Source of the DNA: Amphibalanus amphitrite
Lineage: Eukaryota; Arthropoda; Thecostraca; Balanomorpha; Balanidae
Assembly: GCF_019059575.1 (NCBI RefSeq)
Contig: NW_024882707.1
Location: forward strand, 147,660-211,659
Direction: 5' to 3'
DNA: 64,000 nt
The notes under the pieces were generated by a model, which saw nothing but the letters and a program-made list of their open reading frames with translations, ran no database searches and was not told the origin of the DNA. The stretch's first letter is position 1. Each line of letters starts with the position of its first letter. Positions 5,198 to 57,689 of the stretch are shown here, piece by piece. The translations under genes were made by a program, and so were the position numbers.

Positions 5198-5863
<666 letters not shown>

Positions 5864-37400: not shown

Positions 37401-40400
37401 CCCTCGCCGGCACAGGCCATTTTGCGTCCATCGACGGCACAAGGGGGGGGGGAGGTACGACCCCCCCCCCCTCGCGTTTGCCCCTGATCGAGCTACAGCT
37501 TCGCGGAAAAAAAACGAGCGTGTTGCCCGTCACGAGAGGAAGCCGGTGATATCCAATTTCAAGGTCCTAGGTCATCGGGAGACCTTCCAGGTCAGGTCAA
37601 TGACCCGAAAATCGGGAAAATCGGGACCTGTTAGAAAGTCGTAAAGTGTGGCTGCTAAGGGGTTTTCCGGGGTGCTGATCACGAATATCGTGTTAGTTTT
37701 GATCAGATATTTTGTTTCTAAGCATTTAAACCAGGTCGGGTCAGGTCAGGTCAGGTCAGGTCAACTGGTAGGGGTCGTGACGGGCATTCGTAATGCGTGT
37801 CAACCGCCTCTGACAGCTTCGTAACATGTTACGAAGGCAACAAAACAACTTCGTAAATGTATAAATGGTTGCTAAATTCGAAATCAGCTCCAAAAACTAG
37901 CCTAGAAACATGTAAAACTCCAAAAAGTGAACCGATGTCACCAAAGGTCAATGACCTGACCTGACCTGACCTTCAGGTGACCTTGACAACCACCCTAATG
38001 CATGGGAGGAACATCAACTCACATGTTGGAACGTTTAAAACCACGAAAAGCTTGCAAACGCGCGGCTAAAGCGAGCCGACATACGACGAATCGCGATTCC
38101 GGTCAAGCATGGTCTCGGAAAAGAGGTCATAGGTCAAAGGTCACTTGGGTCAGGGCTATGAAATTTTCAGGGTAGGTGTAATATTAATCATTACGAGGGT
38201 ATCGAAAGTTTCGTCGCGATCGGCCGCTTTTTACGCGAGTTATTCGCGACAAACCTTGGGGGGGGGGGGGGTGCATCAACCCCCACCCCTTGTGCCGGCG
38301 AGGGTTAAGATAACGGAAAGATATCAGCATTTACATATAACGGCCCGGCCCAGCCTGTAACGCTTTTGAGAGGCATATATTTCATGCCTCAGTAACCGTT
38401 GCAGTGGTTGGGCTGATCGACCTGCCGCCCTTTTTGTTGGGAAGCCTATTTCTTCTACCCCGTAATTAATTGCTCTTAATACATCTACATATAACATACA
38501 TAGGTGATCGTCGTGGCAACTGGCACGTGTCACGCGAAAGCTGTTTTGTTGAAGTAGCACTTTTGAAAGACCTAAACCTTTCTAGTAGAGGTTTTAGCCA
38601 ATGGGTCTACAGACAGTACAGGGATATTTCTATCTTCCACTCCTCTGAGAGCTAGAGCTTCGCGGAAAAAAATGAGCGTGTTGCCCGTCACGAGAGGAAG
38701 CCGATGATACCCAATTTTAACCCTCGCCGGCCCTATTGGTTTTCTACATATCGACACCTTTTTTTAAACCCCACATCTGTTCTCCGGTGAATTTCCGGGA
38801 AGCACGAAAGATCTCTTTTTAGAAGTGTCAATCGTCCGATCCTGATCAAATTTGTGTGTTCGTAAGCTTGCTCTGGCATTGCTTGATTTGCCAAGACAGA
38901 CAAACTTAAGAAAAATCGAGTGACTGTACCTTTTTTAAAGGTTTCTAAACAACTTGTCTGAGCTTCACGGGAGAACAAATGTGGGGTTTAAAAAAGGTGT
39001 CGATATGCGCCGGCCGAGGGGGGGGGGGGGACGAGTACGACCCCCCTCGCCGTTTCGCCCCTGGTGGAGCTAGCGCGTCGCGGAAAAAAAAACGAGCGTG
39101 TGCGCCGTTACGAGACGCAGAGATTGGTACCCGATTGTAAGGTCCTAGGTCAACCGGTGACCTCTGAGGTCAGGTCAAGTGCCCCAAGGCACGGTTCAGT
39201 TTTTGGTGAATAACTTCGCAAAAAACGGCCGCAGAGCCGCGATTTTGGCAGCATCGTGTTCGCCTCGCTCAGGCGCGTCGAATGATATATTTTTGTTCGG
39301 GTCAGGTCAGCTTAGGGTGTTGACCTCAGGTCAAGGTCAGGTCAGCACCCCCAGGTCACGAAGTTGGTCGAAAGAGATCATGTCGCATATCATTCGATTC
39401 GGCAGGTCTTTCTGAGTCCATTGGTGGCTTTCCCGACTCGCTAGCTCAATTTGATCAAGAGTTATTGACGAAAAAATAATATGACCTTGATGACGTCATA
39501 AATGACGTCACGCAAGGTCAACATTGCAAAAGTACGCATCTAACCTTGCAAGGAGTGCATTAAATCACGATTCTGTGTGCTTGAGATAGTTGTAGATCGT
39601 TGCCGTCAACAGAATAGCAGTCTTTATTTTTCCCCATTGACTTATAAATGGTGAGGTCACGAAAATGGCCTGACCTCATATGACCTTTAGGAAAAATCCG
39701 AGATATACAAGATGTGAGACTCATAATGGATACTAGATCCTGCAAGTTTCATTTCCCTGTGACATCTCCTCTAGCAGTGAGGGCGTTGCGAAGTTGCGAC
39801 ATCTGAAGACCGTGCAGAGGTTCACTTATGACGTCATATGTCAGTGACCTGACCTGACCCAAAAATGCGGTTGGTGTCAAAAGATCCGGCTTGAATCAAA
39901 GGTCAGGTATGCCAAGTTTCAGCTCTCTATCGCCAGCGCGTTCGGAGCTATCGCGAAAAAAACCCTATGGGGGGCGGCACCCGCCCCCCCCCCCCTCGGC
40001 CGGCGAGGGTCAAGGTCCTAGGTCATCGATTGACCTTCTAGGTCAGGTCAATGACCCAGAAGTCGGGAAAATCGGGACCTATTAGAAAGTCGTTAAGTGT
40101 GGCTGCTATGGGGTTTTCCCGGGGTGCCGATCACGAATATCGTGTTAGTTTTGATCACAGATGATGTCATTGAGCATTTAGACCAGGTCGGGTCAGGTCA
40201 GGTCAGGTCAACCAGAAGGGGTCGTGACGGGTATTCGTAATACGTGTCAACCGCCTCTGACAGCTTTGTAACATGTTACGGAGGCACCAACACTACTTCG
40301 TAAATGTTCAAATGGTTGCTAAATTCGAATTCAGCTCCAAAAACTGGCCTAGAAACATGTAAAACTCGAAAAAGTGGACCGAGGTCACCAAAGGTCAATG

Positions 40401-43400
40401 GCTTGACCTTACCTTCAGGTGACCTTGACATCCACCCAAATGCATGGGAGCAACATCAAATCACATGTTTGAACAAATCACATGTTCGAAACCACAAAAA
40501 ACTTGCAAACGCGCGGCTAATGCGAGCCGGCATACGCCGAATCGCGATTCCGGCCAAACATGGTCTCGGAAAATAGGTCACAGGTCATTTGGGTCAAGGT
40601 CATGAAATTTTCAGGGTAGGTGTAAAATTGATCAATGCGAGGGACTGAAAGTTTCGTCGCGATCGGCCGCTTTTTACGCGAGTTATTCGCGAAAAACCTT
40701 AGTGGATAGTTGCATACCCCCCCCCCCCCCCTGTGGCGGCGTCCGGCGAGGGTTAAGCAGTCGAAAAAGCACTTTTGGACAATTTACATGTGAATGAGAC
40801 GTGGAAAGGCAGTAAAAACAGCTGCAATGGGCTCAGTTTTACAATAGGCAATCGATTGGGATGCCACATGAGTTTTTACCGGTCAGGTCATGAGCTCGAC
40901 CTTAAAAAATGTTCATCTTTGGAGGTCAAATTACACACCATTCTACACTATTGGACGAGAGAGACATGCTGCTAGCCGAGCGGATTGTTTTTAATGCCTA
41001 TGTAGTATGTACCCACAACAATGACAACAATGCACCGCTGGGCTACGCTTCGCTTGCGTTCCAGGACCGTAGTGACGTCACAGGAAGGGACACGGGCGGA
41101 CCGCTGATGACCCGCCCGCTGTCAAAGGGCGGGCTGGGTTTGACGGGCGCACAATAGCGGCCGCGCGCGTGTTCCTGAAAGCGATAGCGAAGGCACGGGC
41201 GCCGGAAGGGTTGGACGCTTTGACCCTCTCCCAGACCTCCTGCTGTTACTGCCAAGGTTACTGCTACTGAGAAGGAAAATAAGTGACGGTGGTATTCACA
41301 CAGGCTTTCCACTAATTTCTAACGTTTCGCACGTGTCGTCAACAATTCTCGTCCCCTAGAAATACTTGCACGATGCTTGCACGAACACTAAGGTAACCGG
41401 CCTGTTAGTTTGAAACGCCGCCAAAAACATAGGTTGCTCCATGGTTACGAGCGAGCGAGCGCAGCGAGCGAAGTGAGTCTTTTCAATATAACGGAAAAAT
41501 CTCAGTATGAGCGGCCCGGCCCGGCCCGGCCCGGCCCGGCCTGTAACGCTTTTGAGAGGCTTACATCTCAGCAACCGCTGGACCGATTGGCCTGCGGTCT
41601 TTTTTGCTGGGTAGCCCCATCCTGTCTACCCCGTAATTGACTACTTTTGATACATCTGAGTGACCGTCGTGGCACGTGCCACGTGAAATGTCAAGGGTGT
41701 TCAAGCAGTTTTGCAAAAGTAATGATTTTGAGAGGCCCATATCTCAGCAGCGGCTTGAGCGATTGTCTTGCGGTAATTTTTATAGTGTAGCTGCATCCCT
41801 TCTACCAAAGGTCGGATACTCTTGATCTATGTGAGTGCCCCCCACTGCACGTGCAAAATACAAAAAGAAGAGGTGCCAAATTTGTTCCCATTTCAGTAAC
41901 TCGGTAATTACTGGGGCGATTTCGTTGAAACTTGGCATACAGGTAGGCACCCACCAGGCGATGCATTCCCATGTGTTGCGGTTAGGGTGCTACTGCACGT
42001 GCGCACGTGCAGGGGGCGTTTCCGGATCTCGAGAACGGCTGGGCCGATTGCGCTCAAATTTGGTACACGGTTGGGGACCGGTTAGTAGGGTGCCGTGCAA
42101 AAGTCAGTTTGGACCCCATTTGCACGTGCGCACGTGCAGAATGCCGCTTCCAGATCTCAGGAACGGCTGGGCCGATTGCGTTCAAATTTGGCACACCGCT
42201 AGCGACCGGTTAGAAGGGTGCTTTGCGCAAGCCCGTTGGAAGTACCCTCTCGCCCTTCCGCACGTGCAGGGCTCACTATCTCGCTCGCTCGTTCTTCGCC
42301 CAAAAGGCGGTTTACTGGTATAATCTCTTCCATGCATGTGACCGGTCTGGAGCCTTTTCGCATTAGATCGATGCGCGTTTTTATCGATATAGGATCTCCA
42401 TCGATCTTAGAATTTGGCGAATTTGCGATCTGAATGATGGGGTGGAACAAAATTAGAATGGGTCTGAGCCAGGACAGTAGAATAGGAGTTGAACCCAGAG
42501 TCACCAAAATCTTACTAACTCCGACTCCGGAGCCGAATCGACATCGCTAACTGAATGGCTCAAAGTTATACCCGAAGCGGAAGCCAGTCTGCCGAAAAAT
42601 AGCCGTTTTCACGACAGGCTTTCTGGCGAGTGGACTTATATGGTAGTGTTCGCCATGGGCCGGACCAGCCAATGGGTCATGCGGCTGGGCTGGGTCACGG
42701 GCTGGGCTGGGCCCTCAAATATAAATAATCGATGGGCTGTGGTGAGTGTGGATGGGCTGGGACAAGGACTGTAAAGTGGACTCAGAGGTTCGCGACTGAG
42801 CTTAAAACAAAAACTATAGCTTATTACTGTGCAAGACTAAAAAAAAAAACGAATGAAAGCATATATGTGCAATGTGCATTGTGCATGCTGCTCCAAAAAG
42901 ATTGTTTCTTTGCGCCTATGGATGACATATGTACCTTATATATGACATATGTACCTTATACCTAGGTTTGGTGTCCATGATCCATTCATTGTTGACGGGC
43001 TGGTCCGGGCTGGACGGGCTAGACCGGGCTGGGCTTCAACAATTTTACTATGCATGGGTTCGCGCTGGGCCGGGCTGTCAACCCATGGGCCTGGGTCGGG
43101 CTGGACTGGGATTTTGCGGCCCGTGGCGAACACTGTTACATGGACTAAATCTACAAAAATCTCTTTAACAGCAAATAGTTATGTTCATACATATAAAAAA
43201 CGACAATGTATTCAAATACACATTCAAATTAAGCCAACGAAATATCACGAACTCTACAGAAGGGAGGTGTGAACGTGGCGATCAGTTCTGGAAAGAAGAT
43301 AGGCGAACTGATCGAACGACGTAAAACGAAACATGGTTCCGAAGCGAATGCGAAAAGTGTTGTGTATGAAATTCCATGTAAGGGGTGTGGACAAAGTTAC

Positions 43401-46400
43401 GTGGGGGAAACAGGGTAGATGTAAGGGTAAAGGAGCACAAGAATGACGTCAGGTTCCATCGCACATCGAATGCGATCGTACTTCACATTGAAAAGTGTAA
43501 CCATCTGCCTGACTGGGATGGGACGCAGATCTTAGGAAAGAACATGACAAAACGAAAACGCAAAATCATCGAAGCCGCTCATATTATCTCACGCGAAACA
43601 TTTAATACTAGGAGTGGGTTCATTCCTTTAGCGTCTGGTGCTGTTCGTCTAGTAATAGGTAGTCCCTGAACTGTATCCCGTGCGGTGAAGTCAATTTGCC
43701 TTTTGAAATATTTGAAAACATTCCTTCATTTTAGCAGACACACAGTGATCAAGGTATTTGTTACCGAAAGCTCTGTTTTTTAATTGTGTATTTGAATACA
43801 TTGTCGTTTTTTATATATATCTGTCATGGATAACACACATATGTTCATATCATGACTTTATTTTAGTATTTTAACCCTCGCATGTGTAGGGGTAGTTGGA
43901 TGGACCCGCGTCCCGCCCCCTCGGTTTTTCGCGAATAATCTCGCTCAAAAAGCGGACGATCGCGACGAAACTTTCAGTACCCCAGAGTTGATCAATTTTA
44001 CACATACTCTTTTTCTTTCATGAACTTGACCCAAATGACCTTTGACCCCTGGCCTTTTTCTCGAGACCATGTTTGACCGAAATCGCGATTCAGCGTATTT
44101 TCAGCGTATATTTTGATTCAGCGATCACATTATCCGCGCGTTTCCAGTCTTTTTTGTGTTGTAAACGTCCAAACATGTCAAATGATGTTCGTCCCATGCG
44201 GCATGCATTACGGTGGGTGCCAAGGTCACGTAAAGGTCAGGTCAGGGTCATTGATCTTTGAGGACCTTGATTCACTTTTTCGAGTTTAACATGTCGTTAG
44301 GCGGCACGGGCGGACATCGATAGCAGCGCCTCTATCGGTCACTAGGGAAAGCTGGGCTGTAGGCGACGAAATACCGGCTGAGTTGTCACAAGTTAAACAG
44401 GTTTATAGACATCCGTCTTGTGACAAAGTTGAACTTTTGCCTTCAATATTTCTACAGGCAATTTTAGAAGTGCCTTCACATAGACTACAAAACCGTTTAA
44501 ATTATTTTATTCACTTCAAGCCTTCCCTATTGTTCTTGATGATGCGGGAACTATTTCTAATTAGTGTTTCTAGCTTAGTAAAAGAACATATTGTGCAAAC
44601 GATGAAAAAAGCATAAATGGAAGATTTTAAATGCAATTTTATGTAACAAATAATGGTAAATTCTCTACACATCAAGGAAAAGGTGCATGCTAACTGATAA
44701 TTTAAAGTTCTTGGGGCCAGTTGGTTTCTTCTTTTCTTACGTCGCCCCAATGGCCGCGAATACACTTGTGATAACGCCTATCGTCCTGGCATCCGTTTGA
44801 ACATTTACTTAGTAGTTACGAGCGAGCGAGCGCAGCGAGCGAAGCGAGTCTTTGCAATATAACGGGAAAATATCAGTATGAGCGGCCCGGCCCGGCCCGA
44901 CCGGGCCTGTAACGCTTTTGAGAGGCTTATATCTCAGCAACCGCTAAACCGATTGGCCTGCGGTCTTTTTTGCTCGGTAGCCCCATCCCTTCTACCCCGT
45001 AATTGACTACTTTTGATACATCTCAGTGACCGTCGTGGCACGTGCCACGTGAGAAGTCAAGGGTGTTCAAGCTGTTTTGCAAAAGAAGTGATTTTGAAAG
45101 GCTCGTATCTCAGCAGCCGCTTGAGCGATTGTCTTGCGGTAATTTTTGTAGGGTAGCTGCATCCCTTCTACCAAATGTCGGATACTCTTGATCTATGTGA
45201 GTGACCCCCACTGCACGTGCAAACAGCAAAATACAAAAAGAAGAGGTGCCAAATTTGTTCCCATTTCAATAACTCGGTACCTAATTACTGGGCGATTTCG
45301 CTGAAACTTGCCACCAGGCTATGCATTCCCATGTGTTGCGTTTAAGGTGCTACTGCACGACGTGCAGTGCACGTGCGCACGTACAGGGGGCGCTTCCAGA
45401 TCTCGAGAACGGCTGGGCCGATTATTTCAACATTTTTTTTTTCTTCAAAAAGCGGCGCACAACTCGGGAACCAATAGAGCTACCCGACTCAAGAAACAAT
45501 AGACGCAGCAAAACGGACGAGAAGGCAAACGAGAGAACGCGACGAGACATTTACGATGAGCACCTGAAAGTTGAATTTCAAGGTCACAGGTCGGGTCAAG
45601 GTCAGATCAAACACATGAAATTGGGCTTTCAGTAGCATGGGTCCAAAACACCTCTGGTGACCTGACCTTTGACCTGACCGAAAAAGTGACTTAAGTATAA
45701 AGTTCGCCATTATTCCTTACGCTTTTTCGAACGTCGCTTTCCCCGTATCGCTACATGGCCCAGGAGCCGAGCTAAAAGGGGGGTGTTCAAACACCCCGCC
45801 CACCAGCAGGGCGTGTAATTCCAGGACCCCCAGCGGGGTGCGGGTTATGAAATGCATTCATCATGGTCGTGAAGTAGTCACAATAAATTGCCAAGATTCC
45901 ATTCAAGATTTTGGAAACCGTAGAACGATAGGTAATCAAAAATCGAAGATGGCAATTTGATTGTTCATGGTAGGTATAGGCAGTCCAATGACGTTTACGG
46001 CATGTCTGTATGTCTATTCTGTGCCTACCCATGATTTTTTTAAACATGTGTCGTTTTTTCGAAAGCTCAAATCATGACGTCAGTAAAACCTCGATATCTT
46101 AACCCTCGCATGTGTGCGGCGTTTGCCAGCTTCTAATGTGTAGGGGGGGGGGTCGGTTGGACCCCCCCCTTGCCGTTTGGCCCCTGATCGAGCTAGAGCT
46201 TCGCGGAAAAAACGAGCGTGTTGCCCGTGACGAGAGGAAGCCGATGATACCCAATTTTAAGGTCCTAGGTCATTGGTTGACCTTCCAGGTCAGGTCAATG
46301 ACCCAAGGTCGGGAAAATCGGGACCTGTTAGAAAGTCGTAAAGTGTGGCTGCTAAGGGGTTTTTCGGGTGCTGATCACGAATATCGTGTTAGTTTTGATC

Positions 46401-49400
46401 ACAGATGATGTCTTTAAGCATTTAGACTAGGTCGGGTCAGGTCAGGTCAGGTCAACCAGTAGGCGTCGTGACGGGTATTCGTATTACGTGTCAACCGCCT
46501 CTGACAGCTTCGTAACATGTTACGAAGTCACCAAAACTACTTCGTAAATGTTTAAATGGTTGCTAAATTCGAATTCAGCTCCAAAAACTAGCCTAGAAAC
46601 ATGTAAAACTCGAAAAAGTGAACCGAAGTCACCTGACCTGACCTGACCTGACCTTCAGGTGACCTTGACACCCACCCTAATGTATGGGAGCAACATCAAA
46701 TCACACGTTTGAACGTTTGAAACCACGAAAAGCTTGCAAACGCGCGGCTAATGCGAGCCGACATACGCGGAATCGCGATTCCGGCCAAACATGGTCTCGG
46801 AAAAGAGGTCACAGGTCAAAGGTCATGGGGGTCAGGGTCATGAAATTTTCAGGGTAGGTGTAAAATTGATCAATGTGAGGGTACTGAAAGTTTCGTCGCG
46901 ATCGGCCGCTTTTTACGCGAGTTATTTGCGAAAAACCATGGGGGGTCCATCCGACCCCCCCCCCCCCCTACACATGGGAGGGTTAAAAAATTGGACCGAT
47001 TTTTTGGGAAATTTTGTCACAATAAATTTCTATAGATTCCCTACATGTACCTACCTACACAAAATTTGGAACAAAAAAAAAAACATCGTCCCTATGCTAA
47101 AATTCTGCACCAGCAACATTCCAAGTGTTCGTGCTTACAAACGAGCCAATTGTTTATATGGACTCTCAGCTGCTCCCGGGTCATGCGCAGCGCCTCGCCG
47201 ACTGAGCGTATGCCAGGCTGAGGCGACAAGCCAGCCCGTCACCGCAAGAACGGCGCTGCCTCCCTCCCCCTCCTCCCGACCCCGTCCCCCGACCGGCGCG
47301 GCATTCCTCAGGCCACAATAGTGACTCTCCTCCCTCAGTTGACCCGTCCTCAGGTGCGGTGTACACTGGACAAATACCTCTGCCGGGGCTGACGGGGTCC
47401 ATGTTTGAACAAGGGATTAAGGGAAGCCTTCAAATATCTCAGACGGAGTTTTCGCCGAAACTACCAGCTAGCGCCATCCACCGGTGAACGGCGGTACTAA
47501 ACTTCATTCGCTAGTTCCCGAAACGACACACCATGCGTGTAGTCGAACAGTACTTGCGTCAAAACACGCCATATACCACTCAACACCGTACATACATGCA
47601 CTCAATACTGCCGGCATGCAGCCGTTACGAACATTCCCGCTGCCGTTTCAACTACCTTGCCCATAGTAGCGCCACTCCCAAATGTATCTTAACTCTTCCT
47701 TCTCAGTAAACTCACCTTCAACGCTCTCCTCACAGAGACATTCAAAACCTCGGGATTATTCGCCGTCGCTTCCCCACCGTATGCTAACCCTCCCGTTCCC
47801 CCGCGTCTCAGGTCATGATGGCCACAGAGGAAGTGACTGAAATGGACGTGGCCGCCAGCATCCCCGCCGAGCGCGTGGTGCGCGCCGTCGCCAAGGCCGT
47901 CACCATATCAGAGGATGACATCGGTGAGAGGCCTGGCTGTGAGGGCGTGATTCGGCGATTTGTTTCATTTCCTATCCCTACCGCCCTTATCTCCCCGTTA
48001 AATTCTTTCGTGATGAGTATTCTCACGTAACCCGTCCTTGATCCGTACGTGATGCGGCCGTGACTCGTCCGTGACTAATTCGTGACTCATCCGTTGTCCG
48101 TCTCCGTCCACAACCCTTTCATGACCTGACCTGTGACCTCCCGGCCGTGTGTCCGGCAGCGGTTGCCAAGGTAAAGGTGTGCGCCGCCCGGCTGGTGGGC
48201 GAAAACGACCAGCCCGTGCTGGTACCCACCATCGAGGAGGGCGACAACTTCTGGACCACCTCGCACGGCCGGTTCCGCTTCACCGTGGACGAGCTACCGC
48301 CCGAGCTGCAGCTGCTCTACGGACTCCTGAACGTTAGTGGAATAATCTCCTCGTGCTTTGCTTCCCTGCGAAGTGCGAACTGAAGAATATGGCTGTATAA
48401 ACGGTATTGTCTACAAATTGTTGGTTAGTCGATGCGTATATTCTTGCATCCCAAAATACTTGTAGCAAAATCATAAGCTATTGAGGGCTGTTCTCAATAA
48501 ATCGTTCGAGTCGGAGCTTTCGAATTGTATTCACAAAACTTCATCAGCGTGTCGTATACGGGTTCAGGCCTGCAGAGCCCGATACCGATTATGACACGCT
48601 GACAAAGTCGCCCTCCAGAGCTACCATATCCAGCCCTCCAGAGCTACCATATTCTGACCCCACCTCTGCGCAGCGTATGAAGGAGAGTGACGACCAGGAC
48701 GTCACCTCGCACCTGCTGGCCTGTCTGCGACTGCTGGTGCTGCACGCTGACTGTCTGCAGCGGGCGGCCAGGGACCACCGCGGCTTCCACATCTGGTGTC
48801 AGGAGAACCTCGTCATCAAACAGTAATTACGAGTCGCTGCGGGGCGATCCACCCGCCGCCTGCGCTCAGTGGTGTATTGATGTGTTCAGTTACAGTTTTG
48901 GAATGGCCGATTCTGGAGAAAAAGTTTTAAGTTCCGCGCTGTGTATCATAGGACGTGTCTGCAAACTCTGCTTGATACGCATGTGTTCTCTAAGTCTGCT
49001 CTCAGTCTTTGTCCGTCTTTATTGTTAATGTGAATTTTTGTTTCAATGTCTTACATTTTATTTATTTCTGCCTGAATGTTAGATAAACCATTTCTCTTTG
49101 CTTTCGTTTAATGTTTGTTGTCATTGTTATTTTCAAAATATCTATGGCGCATGATTTCACGTTTCTCTGACATCTGTTTTCAGTTTGTCTTGTTGCTGCA
49201 TCTGAGTCTGGTGAGTATCATCTGTCTGTCTGTTTCACTTCTCGATTCATCCCAAATTTCGTGTTATTATTACTTCCTCTATAATTTTCTTTGAATCGTT
49301 TTATTCATAGCAGATGATAGTCTGCTTTGTAGAAACGACATGGTTGATGGCGATGTATCATGACGTAACCATGATTGTTCATGGTGCGTTTATATTCCTA

Positions 49401-52400
49401 ATTTTAATCACGATGTTTTTCGCAACAATTACAATAATCAACGACAAATCACACCGTATCCAGCCGTATGACACTCTCGTTCCCTATCCCCCCCCCCCTT
49501 TCCCTAGACTGTGGGACCTGCTACTGGCCGAGTACTCCCAGATCCCGGAGATAGCCGTGCCCGTGCTGCTCCATGCCATCACACTGCCCTGCGGTGCAGA
49601 TGTGTTCTGGCAGATCGTCGGCAACGAGTTCCAGAGCGACGACTGGAAGGTCCGCTTCACCGCCGGTGAGTTAGACAGTGAGACAGTCGCTGAGACAGTC
49701 GCTGAGACAGTGAGAGACTTAGTCATTGAGACAGGCTGTCTCGGTGGCTATTTCTTAGTGATACAGGGAGGCGGACGGTGAATGAGGCACTGGTCATCCC
49801 TCGGCTGTGCAGTTCGCGCTGGAGTTGTGTTTTGGCTGGATAGCCGGTCGCGGTCGGAACTTGCCGAAAGTCGCTGAGAGTGGGCTGACATAAGCAGTGT
49901 TTGGAGATGTGTTGTCTGGTTGTGACGCTTTAATTGCGGTACCGGAACGCTGAAGCCTCCTCTACTTTCCTCTAACCACCCCGCCCCTCCCCCGTCCTCC
50001 AGTGGAGCGCGCCACGGTACTGGCCCGGTTTCTGGAGCCGTCCGTGGTACGCCGCAGCGGCCCGGCGCTGCAGCCGTCCCTGGCTCACGTCTTCTCGTAC
50101 CTTATACACGCCGTGGACGACCTGTCGGCGGCCGTGGCGCAGAAGGTGCAGCTCTACATGGAGACCATCCCCGACGGAGGCATACGGGTGGGTGCTGGGT
50201 TGTCAGTTCGAGGGGGAAGGGATGATATATGTATTGTAATGTAACGATGCGGGTAAATACCTATGTCGCGTCAAAGGCAGCATATTGGTTGGGCAGCAAA
50301 GTGAGTGGCACTAGAGGAAGGGAAGAACTCTGGCACTGAGTCTGACCAAGAAAACCATTAATGTGTCTGGAGGCGCAGCTAAACACGCTCTGGCGCCCCA
50401 CAGACGATCTGTATGTGCCTGGAGGCGCAGTTTGACACGGTGATCGTGGACCGGCCGCTGGTGCTGAAGACGGTGCTGCAGCTCTTCAACCTGCTGCCGA
50501 CGCGCGGCATTCTCTCCTGGGAGTTCTTCAACAGTCGCTTCGACTGTCTGGTGCTGGAGACACAGATACGGCTGGAGCGACACGGGGACATTCCCATCAC
50601 TAAAGGTGCGTCCGGCCGCCCGCCGCCAGCAGTGACAGTGCCATCTCAGTGTATCTGTCAGTAGCTATCTACCTGCTAAGGAACTGAGATGGGGGATCTA
50701 TAAATACTTCAGTCACTGCGATTGTTGGATCTTCCAGCTCAATGCGTAGAATGGTTTATATATCAGCCCAGTTGCTGGGATGCAGGTTCACATGCCTTTG
50801 CTTCGCGCCTCAATAATTATGCTTAACCTCGAACTATCAGTCACTCTACTAGTTCTCTTTGAAATCATTTCCCCAACAAATTATTTCCTACTATGTCGTG
50901 TCGCCATTTATCGGGTCTATTAGACCCACCGATGACGCCAATTCTCTTCTCCAGACCTGAAGGCGGACGGCGCCGCCAGCGAGGCGTACATCCGCCGGCT
51001 GACGCGGGCGCACGAGGCGCTCACCGCGGCCGCCTCAGGGCCCGGCCATCGGCGCACGCTCAACTCTAGCATCGGCGCCAAGTGGCCGTATAAGCGGGCC
51101 ATGTCTGCGCCGGCGGTCGTACCGCGGCCAGATAAAAACGGTACGACGGCACCCAGAGTCGTAGACGGTACGCAGGTGACACGGAGGCGCGGCAGCGGCA
51201 TGTCGGTGTGGATATGTACTGGCTCGGTGTGTTCGGCTGTTGTTGGATCACGAGCTGAATGTGTTGTTTTATTTACGTTGTGAGTAGTGACAGCTGCAGC
51301 AAAGGACATGAGTCAAAAGTCTTTAAGTACTTTCCTTCGCATTGTTTTTTTTGTGGATCAATGAACGGCCACCGAGTATGTGAGCCGTGCACCTCTTCGG
51401 GCTGACGTCGAAGGGACCGTTTCGATGCGGTGGGATCATGGATGAGTCTGCCATCAGGACGGCAGCCGATGAAACCACGGTGTTTACCCGACTGGCTTTA
51501 GTCCCGATATCTTTACTCTGGATTTTCGCAATGTCTCTCAATGGTCCTTACAAAAGAGCGGAAGGACTCCTTAGCTGGCGGAGATGATTGTCTTTCCTTT
51601 ACACTTATGCTGTATTTATGCTCTCAGGAATGAGGCTCTGTTTGATGTTGCACGATTGTAAAAAAGGAAATATCGTCGATAACTACGATGACTGCTATTG
51701 TTGTAAATATGCACCGTGCAGTGTATATCTTTTCATCTGTGTCGTGTTTTGTCCCTCTGTGTTGTGTTTGTACGAGTTATATTGTCACGTTTTCTTTATT
51801 GAAGTTTATAAGTATGTGATGAGCTAAAGATGAGCCTTAGGAAGAGCTAATCTAATCTTATCGATGGTAATTTAAGTATCCAGGCTGATATGTAGACAGG
51901 AAAAACTGTCTCTCCTTTTCGTATTTCTAAACTTTGCCACAGCTTGTCATTTCACCGATTTTAATGCTATTTCGTTGTATTGCAGACATTTTGAAGCACA
52001 CCTACCCGCGCCAGGCCTCGGCCCCGGCACTGAACAGAAAGGCGTCTCGTTTCGGTATTTCGCAGATGAATCATGCTCCGGGTGAGTGGTGTGAAAGCTA
52101 TTCATGCTTACAAACAGATGCCGGGCTAACCCCGCGTTCGCAGTCTCCCAGACGACAAACTTTCTACGCCGTCCGGCCAATTCCGTTCGAGGTCGGCGGG
52201 GGCTGGGCCGCGCTTATCGAAGGCTGTTGGCGGGACAACGTAGAATCTTCGTCGTCCGGGAGACTGCAAACGCGGGGTAAATGAGTGCATTAGTCAAAGT
52301 ATAACAGACCATTCAGTACTACAGGGTTTGTTACGCTCGTTTTTTTTTTAAGGGGTAACGTTCCAGGTATACCGTTATTTTTTGTTGCCTGAAATGTAAT

Positions 52401-55400
52401 TCATACGCCATTATCGAGTAAGCATCAGCTGCCCCACTACACTGTTTACGTCATTTCTCAATCCACGTTCATCCTGCCTTCATTCCCAACTGTATGCGTT
52501 TCTGCACCCGCAGAGAACAGCAAGTCGTCGGCGCCGGCGGCGGGCGCCTGGGACTCGCTGCCCCTCGTGTATCGCAACATGGACAGCGATCAGGGGGACC
52601 GGGAGACCACCCACCTGCTGGTCGACCTGCTGATGAAGTTTATGGCTCGGCCCGACCAGGTAGGACCGTCGTTGTTACCGCCAATTACCTGTGAATCGGC
52701 CGAGTTACGCGCGCTTTTTAAAGCCCCTGGTGTTTCAAGACTAAACCAGTGGCTTTGGTCAGCAAACTGACCAGGTAGAATTGACGGCGTGCCAGCGAAT
52801 CGACCGAGCTGTGCGTACTCTTTAGACCACTGGTGTTTTGTGACTAAAGCAGTAAATTTGGCTGACAAGCGACACCGCATGTTGAGTTGTGAGGTATTTG
52901 GGTCATACAAGGGTCACATACATCTACATCAAATGTTCCTTTTTCCATTATTTGTTCATCAAACCGCCACCGTCAGCGTTACGCTGACCGTCTCGGTTTT
53001 TATCCTCGCAGGCGCCACCCGGTGACGACAAGCAGCAGTGCCGCAGCCAACAGATGGCCCTCCGACACCTGGCCATGAGCCTCGGGTTCAACCAGACCGA
53101 CAAGACATTCTTCATGTCGCCGGCGCGGCTCAGGTGAGTCAGCGGACCTGTCGGAGAAGATGGGGAATACCTGGTGACGGTGGAATACCTGTTGACGGTG
53201 GAGTCGGATTTGATAGAACGTTTTGTGGTGTTCTCAGTTCTCTTGTCAAGGCTGACTCCGACTGACGGCGACTCCGACTCCGACTCCGACTCTGCAGCTC
53301 TGGCTGGATGATCCTGATCGGAGACACACCGCGGACTTGTAAGACCCCCTTCCACGCTGACCGTCACTCCATCACCGACAGGTCGAAGGCGTCATTCAAC
53401 GCGTTCCTGTCCCAGCTGACGCACGTGCTCGACTACAACTTCCCTCTGGGCGGCGCTCTGGTACCGCTCTGTCTGCCGATCCTCCTGTACGCGGCGGCAC
53501 CGTCCCGGCAGGCGGCCGTGGCGCCCGGCCGGCCCAGCTACAGCCTCTGGCATCTGGAGGAGCGCCAGAGACACGACTGGCTCGCCGCCCTGCTCACCAT
53601 TCTGTACAAGGTACGACTGGCTGGCCGCCCTGCTCACCATTCTGTACAAGGTACGACTGGCTGGCCGCCCTGCTCACTATTCTGTACAAGGTACGACTGG
53701 CTGGCCGCCCTACTCACCATTCTGTACAAGGTACGACTGGCTGGCCGCCCTGCTAACCATTCTGTACAAGGTACGACTGGCTGGCCGCCCTACTCACCAT
53801 TCTGTACAAGGTACGACTGGCTGGCCGCCCTGCTCACCATTCTGTACAAGGTGCGGCGGACAGTCGGGATGGGGTGCAGACTGCAGATCTCTCCGATTTT
53901 AGACTGCATGAGGAGGGCAGTGATTTGGGCTATAGTAAATGAGTGGAGGTAGGACTGATTTTGCGGGCTTTATAAAGAATATGTTGCAAAAGTAGACGAT
54001 GGTATGAAATAGTGTGGCATTGATTTTGCATTCTTGTGGAAGCCAAAATCATGGCTATGCCAGGGCGTTTAAGGTTTTTACACTCTAGTTTAAATCATTT
54101 GCCGCGTCGATCAAACTAAAATTTGCCCTCGAGTCCAATTAGTTAAATTTTATCATAAGGGGATGTTTGAAACCTGCCAGCCAGCTGGTTTGTTACTATC
54201 AGCGCTTGAAACAGAGACAGCTGTTGTTGCTGCATGTGACTCGTCTTTTTGTGAGATATTTGTATCGTTGTTGTTTATATCGGCCTGCCTGACTTGTTTG
54301 ACTTATTGTGTATGGCGTCGATTGTATGTTGTTGTTTTTTTTTACTCTATGTATTGTGACATGGCATTACTCTAAGCATTTATGTGAGCTATTTTCTCTC
54401 TAAGACCATTTTCTCTTGCGGTCTGTGCTTGTGCAGAATATTTTTGGCTTTATTCCTACCCGTCAATACGGAACGGGAGCAGCTTTGTTTTTGCCGAACG
54501 CTGAGCTCTGATAGAAGACGTCAGGTGCTACAGCCTCCGCGTCCGCTTTTGGTCGCCACGTTGTCGCCCGCCTGTGCTAATTACTTGTCGTTACATGTTG
54601 TTTTTCCGCTTGCGACCGCTACGACTGTCCACGTCGCCGCCGCTCCGGAATGCTCCGATCGCTGCTACTGCTACCGCTACCACGGCTGTGCTGCCGCTGC
54701 TGCAATTACTGCTTCCCCGACCGCTGCTACTGCTTCAACTGCTACTGCTTCCCCGGCTGCCGCTGGCCTACCAACCCCATCGTCTGCTGCCACCCCACCA
54801 TCGGACAATTGGTGTGCATCGCTTCTGCATCGCCACCATGATCGTCGCCTCCGCCATCTTTTCGGCGGTACGGCACACCAACAGAAGGCTCGCTGCTCGG
54901 ACTCGTTACAGTACCAGTACGGTGACCCGGGACTCAGCGTACCTCTGCTGGCGCTCTGTCAGATAGTGCTCAACACACTACACCTCTGCCGACCGCCGGC
55001 TGAGACGCCGGCCGCCGCCGCAGCCGCCGCCGCCCCGCTCAGCAGAATAGGTGGGTACGGTACGGGTGGAGTGGTTTGGATGGCTGTAATGTTGGGATTC
55101 CAAAAATCCTTTATCATAGAAATATACTGGGAGGGATACATTTTATCCGAATAAGTTGTTCATTTAAGATTTCTGCCTACGTAGTTTGCTAGGTTTTTAG
55201 ATATTGTCGTTAAATGACATATTTAGGAGTCTACATTTTACATACAAATATGAAGATATCAGTATTGATGTAGATACCCAAAATAAAAGCGGGAGTCGTC
55301 TAACGGCTACTCACTTTGTCGTCAGGCTCTCACGGCTGCTACCCGTTCCCATCTTTAACGCGGCCGCACGTATCCACAGGCTCGCTGCAGCCGAGTGGTG

Positions 55401-57689
55401 TGGGAGGCTCCCCTCCCGGCCCTGCGGAGCAAACCCCGCCGGTGACCCCTCGGCCGACCCTGGCTCCTGAGCTGGTGCCTCAGCCGCCGCCGCCTCCCCC
55501 GGCGCCAGGACCGCCGTCCTTCAGTGTCGGTGGGGAGGACTGGCGCCGCGGCCGACCCGACCCGACCGCCTGGTGAGCGGGGAAAGGGCAGTGGTAGACA
55601 GCCTGGGGGGCGGGAATGGGCAGCGTCGGACCAGCGAGCTACGTTCGGGGGGTGATGGAGACTTACCAGTGTTGTTGATGATCAGGATTGGACACACTAA
55701 TATCTCAGAAATATCACGGCTCATTTTGGATCACCACGACCACGTGTTCGTTAAATAGTATAGCTTTTGTAACCAATACTATCCTGGAGTCTGAATATTT
55801 GTGTCTCTTTTGCTGGTTTCCGAAAAAAATGAGTTTTTTAATAGATCGTGATGAAACATAGCAGGTTAATTTCAGTGCTTTTTGTTTTCAGTTACGGCAG
55901 TGAGGATAACGACATCGAGCCTGAACTAGAGGCTATCCCAGAGTCACCCAAGACACCGTCGTCACACCAGAGCTTCTGTGTAAGTGTGACTAGATCTAGT
56001 CACGGCTGCTGGTGGCTAGCTGAATCATGACTGCGCTATCTGATCACATGTCCCTAACCTATTCCAGTAGGAAGCTCTGTTGATATGATTTCGTGTACAA
56101 GTCTTCCTCTCCCTGACGTTCATGTGGGCCGGACAGGCTGTGACTGAGACTGAATGTCGCTTTACCTCAGTGCGTGCGCCAGCCCAGACTCGCGTTGGTC
56201 GTTTTCCGTGCGCCAGGATTCCCCGTTGATGGAGCTGGCCGTTACTTTACCTTGACCTGTGTCTGTCGTCCCCAGGACTCCTTAGTCGAGCTGGACGCGC
56301 TGGAGGAGATGACGCCCGTGCAGGCGGTCCAGCCCGTCCAGGTGGACAGCTGCCCCTTCACCGGACTCGGGGTGGCCGAGATGGCACAGTCGGTGTGTGT
56401 CACCAGCGAGGTGAGCTCGCGCTCCATCCGTCCCTCAGACTGTCTGCCGGTCTGTCTGTTTGTCGGGCACTGCGCGCTCCTCTCTGACAGGGGTGTCATA
56501 CCGACTTGCGGCGCCGGAAAGCTGATGAATTAAGTACAGTGTTTCTTCTGAATTTTATTGTATCTCTGAGACACCACGTTTATCTTAAAGTGAGCTCATC
56601 TCCGTAAATAATTTGACTAGCTGCTTGATTTAGCGTTTTTCTTTGTCCCGCCGCTGTCCCATCGCTGACCGTGCACCCGTATCGCACGGTGCCGTGCAGC
56701 TGACGTCTGGCTATGGTCCGACCCGTGTTTTACCGCTGTGCCCTGCAGCTGACGTCTCTGACGCCGGAGGTGGCCACTGTGAACTCGGACCTGGTCACCG
56801 CTTCTGTGGCCCCCTCGGAGATGGCCACGGTGGTTCAGCCGACTGAGGTGGTCTGCCATCAGGCACAGACGGCGGATTTCAGGTAAGCAACTCGCTGCGG
56901 CTCAGATATACCAACTGAACAGTACTGATCGGGGTAGTTATTCAAAAGTCGCCACAGCCATCTGTGGTATATGCGCTCCTTGCATGGTGCTTAAATGCAA
57001 TTATGGGATGCTGTGTTCCTGTCTTTTTTTCTTATTTTGCTATCGCCTGTATTCCTATTTATCTCCGTCGTTCTCCCAGACTTCCCCGTCGCCTAGTCTT
57101 ATATAATACTGAACGAGGCCGGTGTAAATAAATTTTCAAGACCGAGGTCCTTACTGGATTTTTGAACGAGGCCGAAGGCCGAGTTCAAAAATCAGTAAGG
57201 ACTGAGGTCTTGAAAATTTATCACCGGCCGAGTTTGGTATGTATTTTACTGTATGCCAACGATGCCAACGATAAATTTATTTTCTGGACCGAAGCTCTTA
57301 GCCGACTTAGGAACGAGAACATCCCAAAATGTTGGCTTAAGTGCATTCTGGTAATGCATTTTTGACCGTGGTCAATTTGCTTACACCAGTTATTACCACA
57401 CCCCTCTGGCTAATGTATTTGAATAGACCAGGCATACAGTAATTCCTTATTCCAATAACTGCTAACAGTGCTTTGCTCTCTGATGCCCAGGAACTGACCT
57501 CCGCTCCGTGCCGTTACAGTGTGATGGAGGAGACTGCCGAGCTGGAGATGTTTCAGCCGACTGTGGTGTCCGCTGCGACCCATCCGCCGGCCACCGCGTG
57601 TCATCCACCGGTCGCCGCGCCTCACCCGCCGGCAGCCACCGCCGCCGCTCCTGCCGCCGGGAGACAGGCTGCGCCGCCGTTCTTACACA
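16456..57689 (+). CDS. UNC79: UNC79, NALCN channel-complex scaffold; 37 exons placed, 3' end beyond window
   Basis: Exons: 16456-16477, 20624-20740, 22662-22823, 24680-24850, 25314-25391, 25678-25863, 26219-26239, 26484-26617, 27079-27174, 27556-27770, 28075-28168, 28457-28619, 29033-29174, 29433-29609, 30020-30143, 30585-30729, 31081-31229, 31548-31688, 32005-32142, 32470-32625, 47812-47923, 48160-48332, 48674-48822, 49508-49665, 50003-50187, 50404-50605, 50955-51140, 51986-52081, 52514-52659, 53012-53133, 53382-53610, 54912-55050, 55326-55572, 55892-55979, 56276-56410, 56749-56882, 57520-57689. All have GT-AG borders and matching phases (about 1,767 codons). UNC79 is a large, mostly helical cytoplasmic protein that with UNC80 forms an extended scaffold on the NALCN sodium-leak channel and sets neuronal excitability. 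Homology is clear along the length (ALYPSLDYTGLY, HYWPALNP, PPPLYLCQ, NRPIRYC, SLLKEAQ, VQEQALTWL, VPVLLHAITLPCGADVFW, FDTVIVDRP, LSWEFFNSRF, VLDYNFPLG). Human UNC79 is about 2,600 aa, so roughly the last third is missing here. Confidence 0.95.
17329..17803. mobile_element. MITE-like element in UNC79 intron 1
   Basis: Imperfect inverted ends: TAAAGGGACCCTCCCACCTT at the left pairs with the inverse of AAGGTGGGATGGTCACTTTA at the right. About 475 bp with no coding frame. TTA/TAA next to the ends could be a 3-bp target duplication as in PIF/Harbinger elements; the superfamily is a guess. Confidence 0.5.
17804..19148. other. UNC79 intron 1, non-repeat part
   Basis: Mostly AT-rich. A GC-rich patch near 18300-18450 gives a short Arg/Ser/Ala-rich open frame without homology and is not called a gene. 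Confidence 0.4.
19149..20344. mobile_element. TA-flanked element with ~172-bp terminal inverted repeats (intron 1)
   Basis: The first ~175 bases (from CTGTTAACGCCAGACCCC) reappear almost perfectly as the reverse complement in the last 172 bases (20173-20344). TA flanks both ends (19147-19148, 20345-20346). Such long inverted repeats with a TA target suggest a non-autonomous Tc1/mariner-like or foldback element. The GC-rich centre encodes nothing recognisable. It ends about 280 bp before the exon 2 acceptor. Confidence 0.75.
20624..32625 (+). CDS. UNC79: UNC79 exons 2-20, N-terminal helical-repeat portion
   Basis: Exons of 21-215 bases separated by mostly short introns, ending just before the 15 kb intron 20. 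The encoded region contains the conserved N-terminal UNC79 blocks, including a Cys-rich segment over exons 8-10 (GWEPHQC..NC, LYLCQ, CENKNC, CTCFAIEC, IRYCAQC, with His residues). It resembles the Cys/His-rich stretch in vertebrate UNC79 and could bind zinc, which is inference. Exon 12 has an NAG-NAG acceptor (CAGCAG at 28454-28459), so one Gln may be variably included. Exons 19-20 pass into an acidic, Pro-rich linker. Confidence 0.93.
21645..21722 (-). repeat. tRNA-like segment with pol III A and B boxes (SINE-like)
   Basis: Read on the minus strand it begins GGTGTAGCTCAGCGTATGAG (A-box-like) and about 45 bases later has GGTTCAAGACG (B-box-like). The D-arm pairs but I cannot draw a proper anticodon arm, so this is more likely a decayed tRNA-derived SINE head than a working tRNA. 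It lies inside the intron 2 inverted-repeat element. Confidence 0.3.
21803..21905 (+). repeat. Second tRNA-like segment (SINE-like)
   Basis: Contains TAGCTTGGTGG (A-box-like) and GGTTCGAGCC (exact B-box core) followed by a short GC hairpin. The box spacing is larger than in a plain tRNA. Orientation is opposite to its neighbour. Tentative. Confidence 0.3.
23186..24356. mobile_element. TTAA-flanked piggyBac-like non-autonomous element (intron 3)
   Basis: Terminal inverted repeat CCCGCGCCCCGTAGGG at the left and its perfect inverse at the right, with TTAA directly outside both ends (23182-23185, 24357-24360). TTAA targets and CCC-starting ends are hallmarks of piggyBac. Just inside each end is a G-run/C-run palindrome. 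The interior has several AGGTCA motifs and no transposase frame. It is inserted in the TTAA of one unit of the tandem repeat that precedes UNC79 exon 4. Confidence 0.85.
24361..24700 (+). repeat. Tandem copies of the 5' edge (acceptor side) of UNC79 exon 4
   Basis: Four diverged units of about 100-110 bp. Each carries an AACTCCCCGG-type intron piece, a CAG acceptor-like end and the first ~30 exon bases (GTTTCGGCCAGTCGCTGCTG, then CACACCATG). Units centre near 24385, 24475, 24580 and 24685. Only the last one continues as the exon. Confidence 0.8.
24829..25035 (+). repeat. Tandem copies of the 3' edge (donor side) of UNC79 exon 4
   Basis: The block CTGCTGCCGTTCACACTCA followed by a GTAAGGAG donor is repeated about four more times with decreasing fidelity, giving a run of donor-like sites in the first 190 bases of intron 4. 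Confidence 0.8.
26219..26239 (+). CDS. UNC79: UNC79 exon 7, a 21-base microexon
   Basis: Seven codons read as G-L-D-V-E-D-I with split glycine codons at both ends. It has a TTTTTCTCCAG acceptor and GTGAGT donor. Flanking exons are both in phase 1, so the exon can be skipped or included without changing the frame. Inclusion is inferred from splice-site strength; vertebrate UNC79 has a few residues here. Confidence 0.6.
26581..26773 (+). repeat. Three 74-bp tandem copies of the 3' end and donor of UNC79 exon 8
   Basis: Units start at 26581, 26655 and 26729. Each encodes GSEYPPPLYLCQ and ends in CAG|GTGAGG. The second and third are preceded by TTGAGCAG, a weak acceptor, so a 36-base in-frame repeat exon is conceivable. 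The first copy is the one joined to the upstream exon. Confidence 0.9.
30500..30625 (+). repeat. Degenerate tandem copies of the 5' edge of UNC79 exon 16
   Basis: Two diverged copies (near 30502 and 30548) of the exon start segment CTCGATGGTGAACATCGCC precede the real exon with a period of about 40-45 bases. They read CTCAATTTTCAACATCCCC and CTCAATGTTCAACACCCCC. Confidence 0.6.
32712..32738. repeat. Left arm of a 27-bp perfect inverted repeat spanning 14.8 kb
   Basis: Begins CATGGTGTGTCGTTTCGGGA. Its exact reverse complement lies at 47509-47535. The sequences next to the arms differ and no clear target duplication is seen, so these may be ends of one composite element or two unrelated inverted copies. 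Confidence 0.7.
33330..34080. other. GC-rich unclassified intron sequence
   Basis: Contains a segment rich in CCCGG/GGGCTG motifs (33400-33600) and a second GC-rich block (33840-34080). Both look repeat-derived, possibly 3' ends of non-LTR elements, but no end structure or coding frame supports a specific call. Confidence 0.3.
34300..36499 (+). mobile_element. Mariner-like element with TA target duplication and transposase remnant
   Basis: Near-perfect 28-bp inverted ends (CAGGGGTGGGCAGATAAATT at left; one mismatch at right) with TA outside both. A decayed plus-strand frame around 34880-35065 reads PEDVILVPKSMQQTSVMAF and on to SDGHVGPPYF. This matches the central part of mariner/Tc1 (IS630-like) transposases, where a VMVFG..SSDG.VMPP motif follows the first catalytic Asp region. 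Stops and frameshifts elsewhere show it is dead. A TTAA element is inserted in its middle. Confidence 0.75.
35189..36097. mobile_element. TTAA-flanked piggyBac-like element B (909 bp)
   Basis: Ends CCCTCGCCCGCACATG and its inverse CATGTGCGGGCGAGGG, with perfect TTAA duplications (35185-35188, 36098-36101). Next to the ends are G-run/C-run palindromes. The interior has many AGGTCA/TGACCT hexamers. It lies inside the mariner-like element. Confidence 0.88.
37343..38600. repeat. Dispersed repeat family R, copy 1, split by element C
   Basis: Sequence up to 37400 (gaagcgaaatcttttTTAA) and from 38305 (TTAAgataacggaaagatatcag) join to give the same order as the uninterrupted copies near 41460 and 44840. 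After the join come CGGCCCGGCC, TAACGCTTTTGAGAGGC and CTACCCCGTAATTAA blocks. The phrases 'ATATCTCAGCAACCGCT..CCGATT' in this family resemble wording common in non-autonomous Helitrons, but ends were not identified. Confidence 0.6.
37401..38304. mobile_element. TTAA-flanked piggyBac-like element C (904 bp)
   Basis: Ends CCCTCGCCGGCACA and inverse TGTGCCGGCGAGGG with perfect TTAA on both sides (37397-37400, 38305-38308). The interior has an A/C-rich start, tandem AGGTCAGGTCAGGTCA near 37740, and an exact DR1 AGGTCAAAGGTCA at 38131. Inserted in repeat family R. Confidence 0.88.
38721..40009. mobile_element. TTAA-type element E, inserted in D and itself carrying a small MITE
   Basis: Ends CCCTCGCCGGCC and GGCCGGCGAGGG; TTAA at the left (38717-38720) and a one-base-changed TCAA at the right (40010-40013). 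The insertion falls exactly in the TTAA of the phrase CCAATTTTAAGGTCCTAGG, which is intact in the copy at 46250. Confidence 0.8.
38745..39008. mobile_element. Small MITE (~260 bp) nested in element E
   Basis: Inverted ends about 45 bp long: CATATCGACACCTTTTTTTA at the left and its inverse TAAAAAAGGTGTCGATATG at the right, extending through an ACCCCACAT..GTTCTCC block. No coding frame. Superfamily unknown. Confidence 0.75.
40757..41440. other. Intron 20 sequence without assigned repeat
   Basis: Moderate GC content, a GCCCGC-rich patch near 41090-41220 and no recognisable frame or repeat ends. Confidence 0.3.
41441..42345. repeat. Dispersed repeat family R, copy 2
   Basis: Starts with GAGCGAGCGAGCGCAGCGAG and a five-fold CGGCC array, then three successive 'CTCAG..CCGATT..' modules. 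It contains several perfect palindromes around CACGTG (GTGGCACGTGCCAC at ~41667; two copies of GCACGTGCGCACGTGC near 41995 and 42122). More than 80% similar by eye to copy 3. Confidence 0.7.
42644..43135. mobile_element. hAT-like MITE with 8-bp target duplication
   Basis: Left end TAGTGTTCGCCATGGGCC, right end inverse of CAGTGTTCGCCACGGGCC. Flanks TTATATGG (42636-42643) and TTACATGG (43136-43143) form an 8-bp duplication with one mismatch, as expected of hAT. Both subterminal regions are built of GGGCTGG/GGCCGGG repeats. No transposase. Confidence 0.8.
43187..43825. mobile_element. Penelope-like element fragment bounded by ~40-bp inverted repeats
   Basis: The ends share AAAAAACGACAATGTATTCA in opposite orientation (43187-43234 against 43781-43825). 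The enclosed DNA encodes the tail of a Penelope-type protein, annotated separately. Penelope-like elements often carry inverted or direct terminal repeats, so the repeat may belong to the element. Confidence 0.6.
43271..43669 (+). pseudogene. GIY-YIG endonuclease domain of a Penelope-like retroelement, frameshifted
   Basis: Frame one reads VVYEIPCKGCGQSYVGETG, the start of the GIY-YIG-type nuclease fold of Penelope-like elements. A one-base shift near 43413 continues as VRVKEHKNDVRFH, then NHLPDWDGTQIL and RKRKIIEAAHII, in the usual order. The reverse-transcriptase part upstream is absent. This is a dead 3' fragment; in active elements this domain nicks target DNA. Confidence 0.8.
43875..44300. 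mobile_element. TTAA-type element F, left part only
   Basis: TTAA at 43871-43874, then CCCTCGCATGTGTAGGGG and the family interior (TTTTTCGCGAATAATC, GACGAAACTTTCAG, AGGTCAGGTCAGGGTCA) until about 44300, where similarity stops. The right half is lost. Confidence 0.7.
44301..44813. other. AT-rich intron 20 sequence
   Basis: No repeat ends or coding motif recognised. Confidence 0.3.
44814..45430. repeat. Dispersed repeat family R, copy 3
   Basis: Same order of blocks as copy 2 (GAGCGAGCG start, CGGCC array, TAACGCTTTTGAGAGGC, GTGGCACGTGCCACGTG, GTGCGCACGT). Shorter CGGCC array, and the right end is cut off earlier. Confidence 0.7.
45431..46098. other. Intron 20 sequence with AGGTCA clusters
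   Basis: Holds several AGGTCA/TGACCT hexamers (an exact TGACCTTTGACCT at 45663-45675) and a short GGGGTGTTCAAACACCCC hairpin near 45780. Probably the remnant of another element; no ends seen. Confidence 0.35.
46103..46982. mobile_element. TTAA-flanked piggyBac-like element G, complete (880 bp)
   Basis: Ends CCCTCGCATGTGTG and the CACATGGGAGGG side, with TTAA on both sides (46099-46102, 46983-46986). It contains the uninterrupted family interior and is the best reference copy for the interrupted ones. An exact DR1 (AGGTCAAAGGTCA) lies at 46813-46825 and tandem AGGTC pentamers near 46435. Confidence 0.88.
46987..47811. other. Right end of intron 20
   Basis: Unremarkable sequence, with a GC-rich patch near 47160-47400 and the right arm of the 27-bp inverted repeat at 47509-47535. 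A pyrimidine-rich tract before 47812 serves the exon 21 acceptor. Confidence 0.4.
47812..53610 (+). CDS. UNC79: UNC79 exons 21-31, central portion
   Basis: Eleven exons in short introns encode the best conserved central blocks: FTVDELPPELQLLY, SHLLACLRLLVLHADCL, VPVLLHAITLPCGADVFW, the W-K-V-R-F motif, CLEAQFDTVIVDRP, LSWEFFNSRF, THLLVDLLMKFMA and FNAFLSQLTHVLDYNFPLG. Exon 27 has two donors 27 bases apart in the same phase (after 51140 and after 51167), so nine residues may be optional. Exon 28 encodes a Ser/Arg-rich stretch (RQASAPALNRKASRFG) suggestive of a phosphorylated loop, which is inference. Codon use is strongly G/C at third positions, unlike the surrounding introns. Confidence 0.93.
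53571..53850 (+). repeat. Seven 40-bp copies of the 3' end of UNC79 exon 31 including its donor
   Basis: The original exon end is at 53610. Six further copies of the unit GTACGACTGGCTGGCCGCCC.. ending in CTGTACAAG follow with no gap and almost no divergence. Each ends AAG|GTACGA, the last AAG|GTGCGG, giving seven possible donors. No stop codon appears in the frame read through from exon 31. Because 40 is not a multiple of 3, only use of the original, fourth or seventh donor (53610, 53730, 53850) keeps the frame into exon 32. Confidence 0.95.
53851..54911. other. UNC79 intron 31
   Basis: Contains a CTGCTACTGCTACC-type low-complexity tract (54640-54780). Long open frames over it (Leu/Pro/Ala/Thr-rich) are composition artefacts. 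Confidence 0.5.
54912..57689 (+). CDS. UNC79: UNC79 exons 32-37, start of the disordered middle region
   Basis: Exon 32 continues the conserved helix (YQYGDPGLSVPLL, IVLNTLHLC). The rest is low-complexity: an Ala run, a Pro-rich segment (PQPPPPPPAPGPP), then an acidic DNDIEPELEAIPESPKTP motif that resembles an acidic-to-Pro segment of other UNC79 proteins, and Val/Thr/Pro-rich sequence in exons 35-37. Phases are consistent. Exon 37 needs the acceptor CCGTTACAG at 57511-57519; the earlier acceptor-like CAG at 57488-57490 would bring a stop codon. The last donor is CACA|GTGAGT at 57690. The following exon lies beyond the window. Confidence 0.75.
56685..56760 (+). repeat. Duplicated acceptor edge of UNC79 exon 36
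   Basis: The junction GTGCCGTGCAGCTGACGTCT occurs at about 56690-56709 and again as TGTGCCCTGCAGCTGACGTCT at the real exon start, 59 bases later. The first copy, if used as acceptor, would change the phase. Confidence 0.6.
57109..57237. mobile_element. 129-bp foldback MITE forming a near-perfect hairpin
   Basis: Two arms of about 63 bases (57113-57175 and 57178-57237) pair almost completely around a GAA loop. TA lies outside both ends (57107-57108, 57238-57239). In UNC79 intron 36, so any transcript would contain a long hairpin. Confidence 0.75.

Follow-up and report, generated by a model that had tools for sequence, protein, structure and literature searches.

A seven-copy repeat of a UNC79 exon end and donor site in Amphibalanus amphitrite, present once on a second contig

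The UNC79 locus and the seven-copy array

The window, a stretch of 64,000 nucleotides of Amphibalanus amphitrite DNA, is the end of contig C1210 in an assembly of 807.55 Mb and 2644 contigs. It carries a portion of UNC79, a conserved gene whose product is the partner of an ion channel, and the gene continues on a second contig, C286, down to approximately 450.6 kb. The initial annotation had named this gene, and the name was borne out by the homology of several exon groups along the protein. For three larger exon groups, taken from the window and from C286, the UNC79 matches have E-values of 5.7e-128, 2.2e-97 and 3.7e-149. In addition, the exon with the array (SKASFNAF...LLTILYK) and the following exon (YQYGDPG...) match the UNC79 chains (7w7g_A) with an E-value of 1.8e-16. 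Splice sites were assigned by simple scoring against a donor matrix; for exon 3 of the model the start at 24575 was picked by score, and the alignment fits 24680 equally well or better. The features of the gene and of the array are as follows.

20624..57689, + strand: portion of UNC79 inside the window, 31 exons listed (homology and splice-site model)
53382..53610, + strand: UNC79 exon (exon 31 in the initial annotation), number 27 among the 31 listed here, terminating at copy 1 of the array, with a conserved product
53571..53850, + strand: 40-bp unit (exon end with donor) x 7 (inspection and TRF; single copy on C286)
After 53610, 53650, 53690, 53730, 53770, 53810 and 53850, + strand: donors of the seven-copy array
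54912..55050, + strand: following UNC79 exon, in frame with donors 1, 4 and 7

The array has a period of exactly 40 bases from 53571 to 53850 and consists of seven in-register copies. TRF reported it at 53573-53852 with a period of 40, 7.0 copies, 96% matches, zero indels and a score of 525. Chance cannot account for seven copies in register at 96%. As had been noted from the letters, every one of these near-identical copies carries a donor GT: copies 1-7 all end in TACAAG, followed by GT (AAG|GT, 7/7). Copy 1 differs from the unit consensus at unit positions 1, 2 and 13; it starts with AC and has C at position 13, where copies 2-7 start with GT and have G at position 13. Copies 2 and 7 equal the consensus, and copies 3, 4, 5 and 6 have one change each, which is identical in 4 and 6. 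The donor reads AAG|GTACGA in copies 1-6 and AAG|GTGCGG in copy 7.

The second haplotype and arrays at other UNC79 exon edges

One other contig in the assembly, C286, matches the array region. Across UNC79 it aligns to the window in collinear blocks that are 76 to 98% identical. The exon end is found there once, between matching flanks; it has the C of copy 1 at unit position 13 and the donor of copy 7, AAG|GTGCGG. Because C286 shares position 13 with copy 1 and the donor with copy 7, one copy looks like the ancestral state. The change from C to G at unit position 13 would then have arisen in an early duplicate, the ancestor of copies 2-7. DNA queries from three UNC79 sites found two unique places each (one query also matches a dispersed repeat), and the ion-channel matches were mostly equal-score pairs on two contigs, among the matches listed. 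On account of these pairs of unique places and of equal scores, we read C1210 and C286 as two assembled haplotypes. The copy number of the array therefore varies within one assembly, with seven copies on C1210 and one on C286. This agrees with the earlier proposal of a recent expansion with length variation: the array is young, with seven copies against one on the other haplotype.

Divergence between the two haplotypes is uneven, with a maximum of 141 differences per 500-base bin. Zero differences were counted in seven successive 500-base bins over 47536-51035 and in two over 31550-32549; these difference-free stretches, in a gene with strong divergence elsewhere, may reflect recent common ancestry, gene conversion or an assembly phase switch. 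The window haplotype contains a segment of approximately 14.8 kb (32711-47536) that C286 lacks. It has inverted-repeat ends and a 3-base target-site duplication, its flanks are identical on both haplotypes, and it resembles a transposon that recently inserted into an intron of UNC79. Between 58365 and 63996 there are five long arrays of TAGGG/GGTAG pentamers, which start at 58365, 59845, 61106, 62471 and 63888 and extend to the end of the contig, at which the window haplotype stops.

Arrays were also found at other UNC79 exon edges, on which the initial annotation had been silent. All three TRF arrays with a unit of at least 30 in the window lie on UNC79 donors, and further arrays lie at donors and acceptors.

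26579..26776, + strand: 74 bp x 2.7, covering the end of exon 5 (model) and its donor; donor sites follow 26617, 26691 and 26765
24826..25037, + strand: approximately 38 bp x 5.3, end of exon 3 (model) plus donor, degenerate (TRF, 71% matches)
24469..24718, + strand: degenerate copies of the exon-3 acceptor plus exon start
C286 472593-472530: 31 bp x 2, at the end of the exon whose last residues are SKQESH
C286 451663-451352: 88 bp x 3.6, acceptor plus exon start; the exon matches UNC79 residues 2551-2583 of 7w7g_A
C286 452484-452361: acceptor region of exon TCQPVPLDASCH, partly duplicated

The exon-5 array is a single copy on C286 (3/1), and its donors 2 and 3 are met by an immediate TAG. The exon-3 donor array is common to both haplotypes. 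When four of its donors were tested in the window sequence, the first, exon-adjacent one alone kept the frame into exon 4 and the other three led to a stop; one copy of this array is without its GT. Two acceptor-like sites, one before 24575 and the other before 24680, are separated by 105 bases, and each is in frame. The duplication at the SKQESH exon is also present on contig C1053, which is taken to continue the window's haplotype, and the second donor there has TT for GT. The array at C286 451663-451352 holds four exon-start copies and C1053 holds two, read by eye (4/2; an exact-word count on C1053 gives one, as the other copy differs by a base). Copy number thus differs between the haplotypes at three UNC79 arrays, 7/1, 3/1 and 4/2. 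Beside the SKQESH exon, C286:472365-472465 is a 98-base dispersed repeat with 93% identity and at least 38 further places in the genome.

Two rival explanations concern the haplotype difference at the seven-copy array. Assemblies readily miscount the copies of a tandem array, so that the count on C1210 could be wrong or the single copy on C286 a collapse. We consider such an artefact very unlikely, since the copies carry substitutions at four unit positions, the flanks on C286 match around its single copy, and similar haplotype differences are seen at the two further UNC79 arrays. It is just as improbable that C286 is a paralogue and not the other allele, with the difference lying between gene copies. 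The collinear blocks, with identities down to 76%, would fit such a paralogue, but the three UNC79 queries each hit two unique places, the listed ion-channel matches mostly pair up at equal scores, and identical and divergent stretches alternate, as in recombining haplotypes.

Donor use and origin of the array

When joined to 54912, donors 1, 4 and 7 gave an open frame with 0, 40 and 80 added codons, and donors 2, 3, 5 and 6 reached a stop. The modulo-3 rule of the initial annotation, with copies 1, 4 and 7 in frame, was thus recovered, although its list of outcomes had left out the 40 codons added from copy 4. The coding frame also passes through all seven copies stop-free, as had been claimed. 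This is weak evidence, because 27% of 20,000 unit shuffles were likewise stop-free in all frames and 12 of the 30 other exon-end 40-mers of UNC79 share the property. The claim that all seven donors are usable held as far as the GT, and use itself is plausible. With a matrix built from the 30 other UNC79 donors, copies 1-6 scored 7.15 (17th percentile of these 30) and copy 7 scored 8.86 (47th percentile). U1 pairing of all seven (-5.6 and -5.7) was weaker than the median of the 30 others (-9.95).

Taken together, the array is probably a polymorphic exon-edge minisatellite in which mostly the exon-adjacent donor would be used and the remaining copies would be hidden in the intron. We propose that the last 38 exon bases and the donor GT were duplicated in tandem on one UNC79 haplotype, and that slippage or unequal exchange probably then expanded the array to seven copies. 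The spliceosome would act mostly on copy 1, after 53610, and copies 2-7 would be removed with the intron, leaving the protein unchanged. Minor use of copy 4 or 7 may add 40 or 80 codons, and minor use of copies 2, 3, 5 or 6 may give truncated products. The duplication itself would be a chance event followed by selection: duplications within an exon would mostly break the protein, and those at its edge would become intron. Exon-edge duplications could persist because splicing hides them.

Use of the exon-adjacent donor is supported by the exon-3 array, which is present on both haplotypes and in which none of the further donors tested preserves the frame, and by the SKQESH exon, whose second donor is dead on C1053. 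Moreover, the PDB UNC79 chains align gap-free across the LYK|Y junction, the product of copy 1, and the conserved product therefore fits this copy. Against it count the higher donor score of copy 7 (8.86 vs 7.15) and the copy number of seven, which also preserves the frame (a chance of 1 in 3). In splicing experiments with two equal donors, the intron-proximal one has reportedly won. This preference would favour the in-frame copy 7, against the exon-adjacent reading.

Donor choice may possibly decide between protein forms. In an isoform switch, several donors would be used in quantity to give normal, +40, +80 and truncated UNC79, or copy 7 would be the main donor and only copy numbers of 1, 4 and 7 would be tolerated. 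The AAG|GT kept at 7/7 sites, the best score at copy 7 and the frame of copies 1, 4 and 7 would all suit such a switch. We nevertheless regard it as unlikely, as the non-adjacent donors of the sister arrays break the frame or are without GT, and as the extra 40 or 80 residues would fall in a part of the protein to which the UNC79 chains align with no gap at the junction. The array might also be the start of an intron gain, as units 2-7 each begin with GT and end with AG, are joined throughout by AAG|GT and could, according to the AGGT tandem-duplication model, be removed singly or stepwise. This is the least credible of the alternatives: the array extends an existing donor, so a new intron is not needed, and 40 bases are short for an animal intron.

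The minisatellite reading has partial precedents. In human genes in segmental duplications, variable internal tandem repeats have been described at exon-intron boundaries and are able to alter splicing (PMC2812944). The UNC79 array is of the same kind in that it is a tandem repeat that overlaps an exon-intron boundary and varies in number. The human repeats concern recently duplicated paralogues with transcript evidence, whereas UNC79 is a conserved gene with two allele-like copies whose donor was multiplied seven times, as seen in the genomic sequence. The human sample was drawn from recent segmental duplications, and each UNC79 query found two unique places, which we read as alleles. For this reason we suggest that the array works like the human repeats and do not assign it to that set. 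It further shares with intron gain by AGGT tandem duplication (PMC3443670) a duplicated segment with AG|GT, here AAG|GT at the joints. It differs in that it multiplies the donor of an existing intron; no intron was created where none had been, as the donor is already present on the one-copy haplotype. A duplication across an intron-exon boundary is described for potato in PMC4974935, which also cites multiple 24-bp AGGT duplications in fission yeast. Exon-boundary tandem repeats are thus already known from humans (PMC2812944); compared with the repeats described there, the multiplication of an existing donor, the haplotype difference in a conserved gene and the sister arrays are distinct here.

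Alternative donors in series are a familiar arrangement, in which several donors compete for one acceptor and their spacing sets the frame. The UNC79 array likewise places its donors before one acceptor with the frame given by spacing, but it differs in being a regular 40-base ladder of near-identical donors, made by a minisatellite and variable between haplotypes. The serial arrangement is a natural competition test between seven near-identical donors, for which the one-copy allele of the same genome serves as a control. The locus also illustrates a way in which duplications of exon edges may be maintained in a conserved gene. Should other genes follow the pattern, early splice-site duplication and intron lengthening would be visible as polymorphism.

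Distribution of tandem repeats relative to splice junctions

Placement of local repeats was analysed for window positions 20-58k and C286 450-473.4k, which together contain 21 local repeats. Seven of these were dropped, six as dispersed (17-22 places) and one as simple sequence (7 places). Among the 14 unique local repeats that were left, 7 contain a splice junction versus 2.19 expected (p 0.00145, 20,000 draws, post hoc), and the seven-copy array itself is counted among these 7. The junction in the repeat at 48610-48652 is an uncertain acceptor, the row 24943-25020 belongs to the exon-3 array, and the rows at 472361, 459474 and 459380 look by eye like one related 30/31-bp repeat. The acceptor array at C286 451663-451407 was left out, as it stops 11 bases before the last acceptor is reached.

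In a broader sample of 54 arrays with a unit of at least 30 over 352 kb (C1210 whole and C286 410-550k, arrays on both contigs counted twice), donor motifs were not enriched, the mean p for the best motif being 0.45. Compared with composition-matched segments, the best donor motif had p < 0.05 in 1 of the 54 arrays and p < 0.1 in 7. Tandem arrays are common in the sampled region and in general not tied to donors. We therefore claim recurrence for UNC79 and not as a general rule.

It is a tentative idea, less probable than not, that tandem duplication recurs at exon edges, both donor and acceptor, in this species and that splicing acts as the screen, such that the adjacent copy works and the rest decays in the intron. 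If true, UNC79 would show every stage, from young polymorphic arrays (7/1, 3/1, 4/2) to older shared ones (exon 3 and the SKQESH exon). Exon-edge duplication would then keep supplying longer introns, spare splice sites and the raw material of new isoforms.

Other repeats were observed on the two contigs. At the other end of C1210, positions 1-2504 consist of an 81-bp unit x 32 with an AAG|GTGGGA motif in each unit, in sequence not known as an exon. A 64-bp x 2.4 array at C286:432095-432246 lies beside the end of an open reading frame, has donor-like motifs on the minus strand and is possibly an exon-edge array of another gene. In the window, 5197-5862 is an AG-rich simple repeat of 666 bases with 96% matches.
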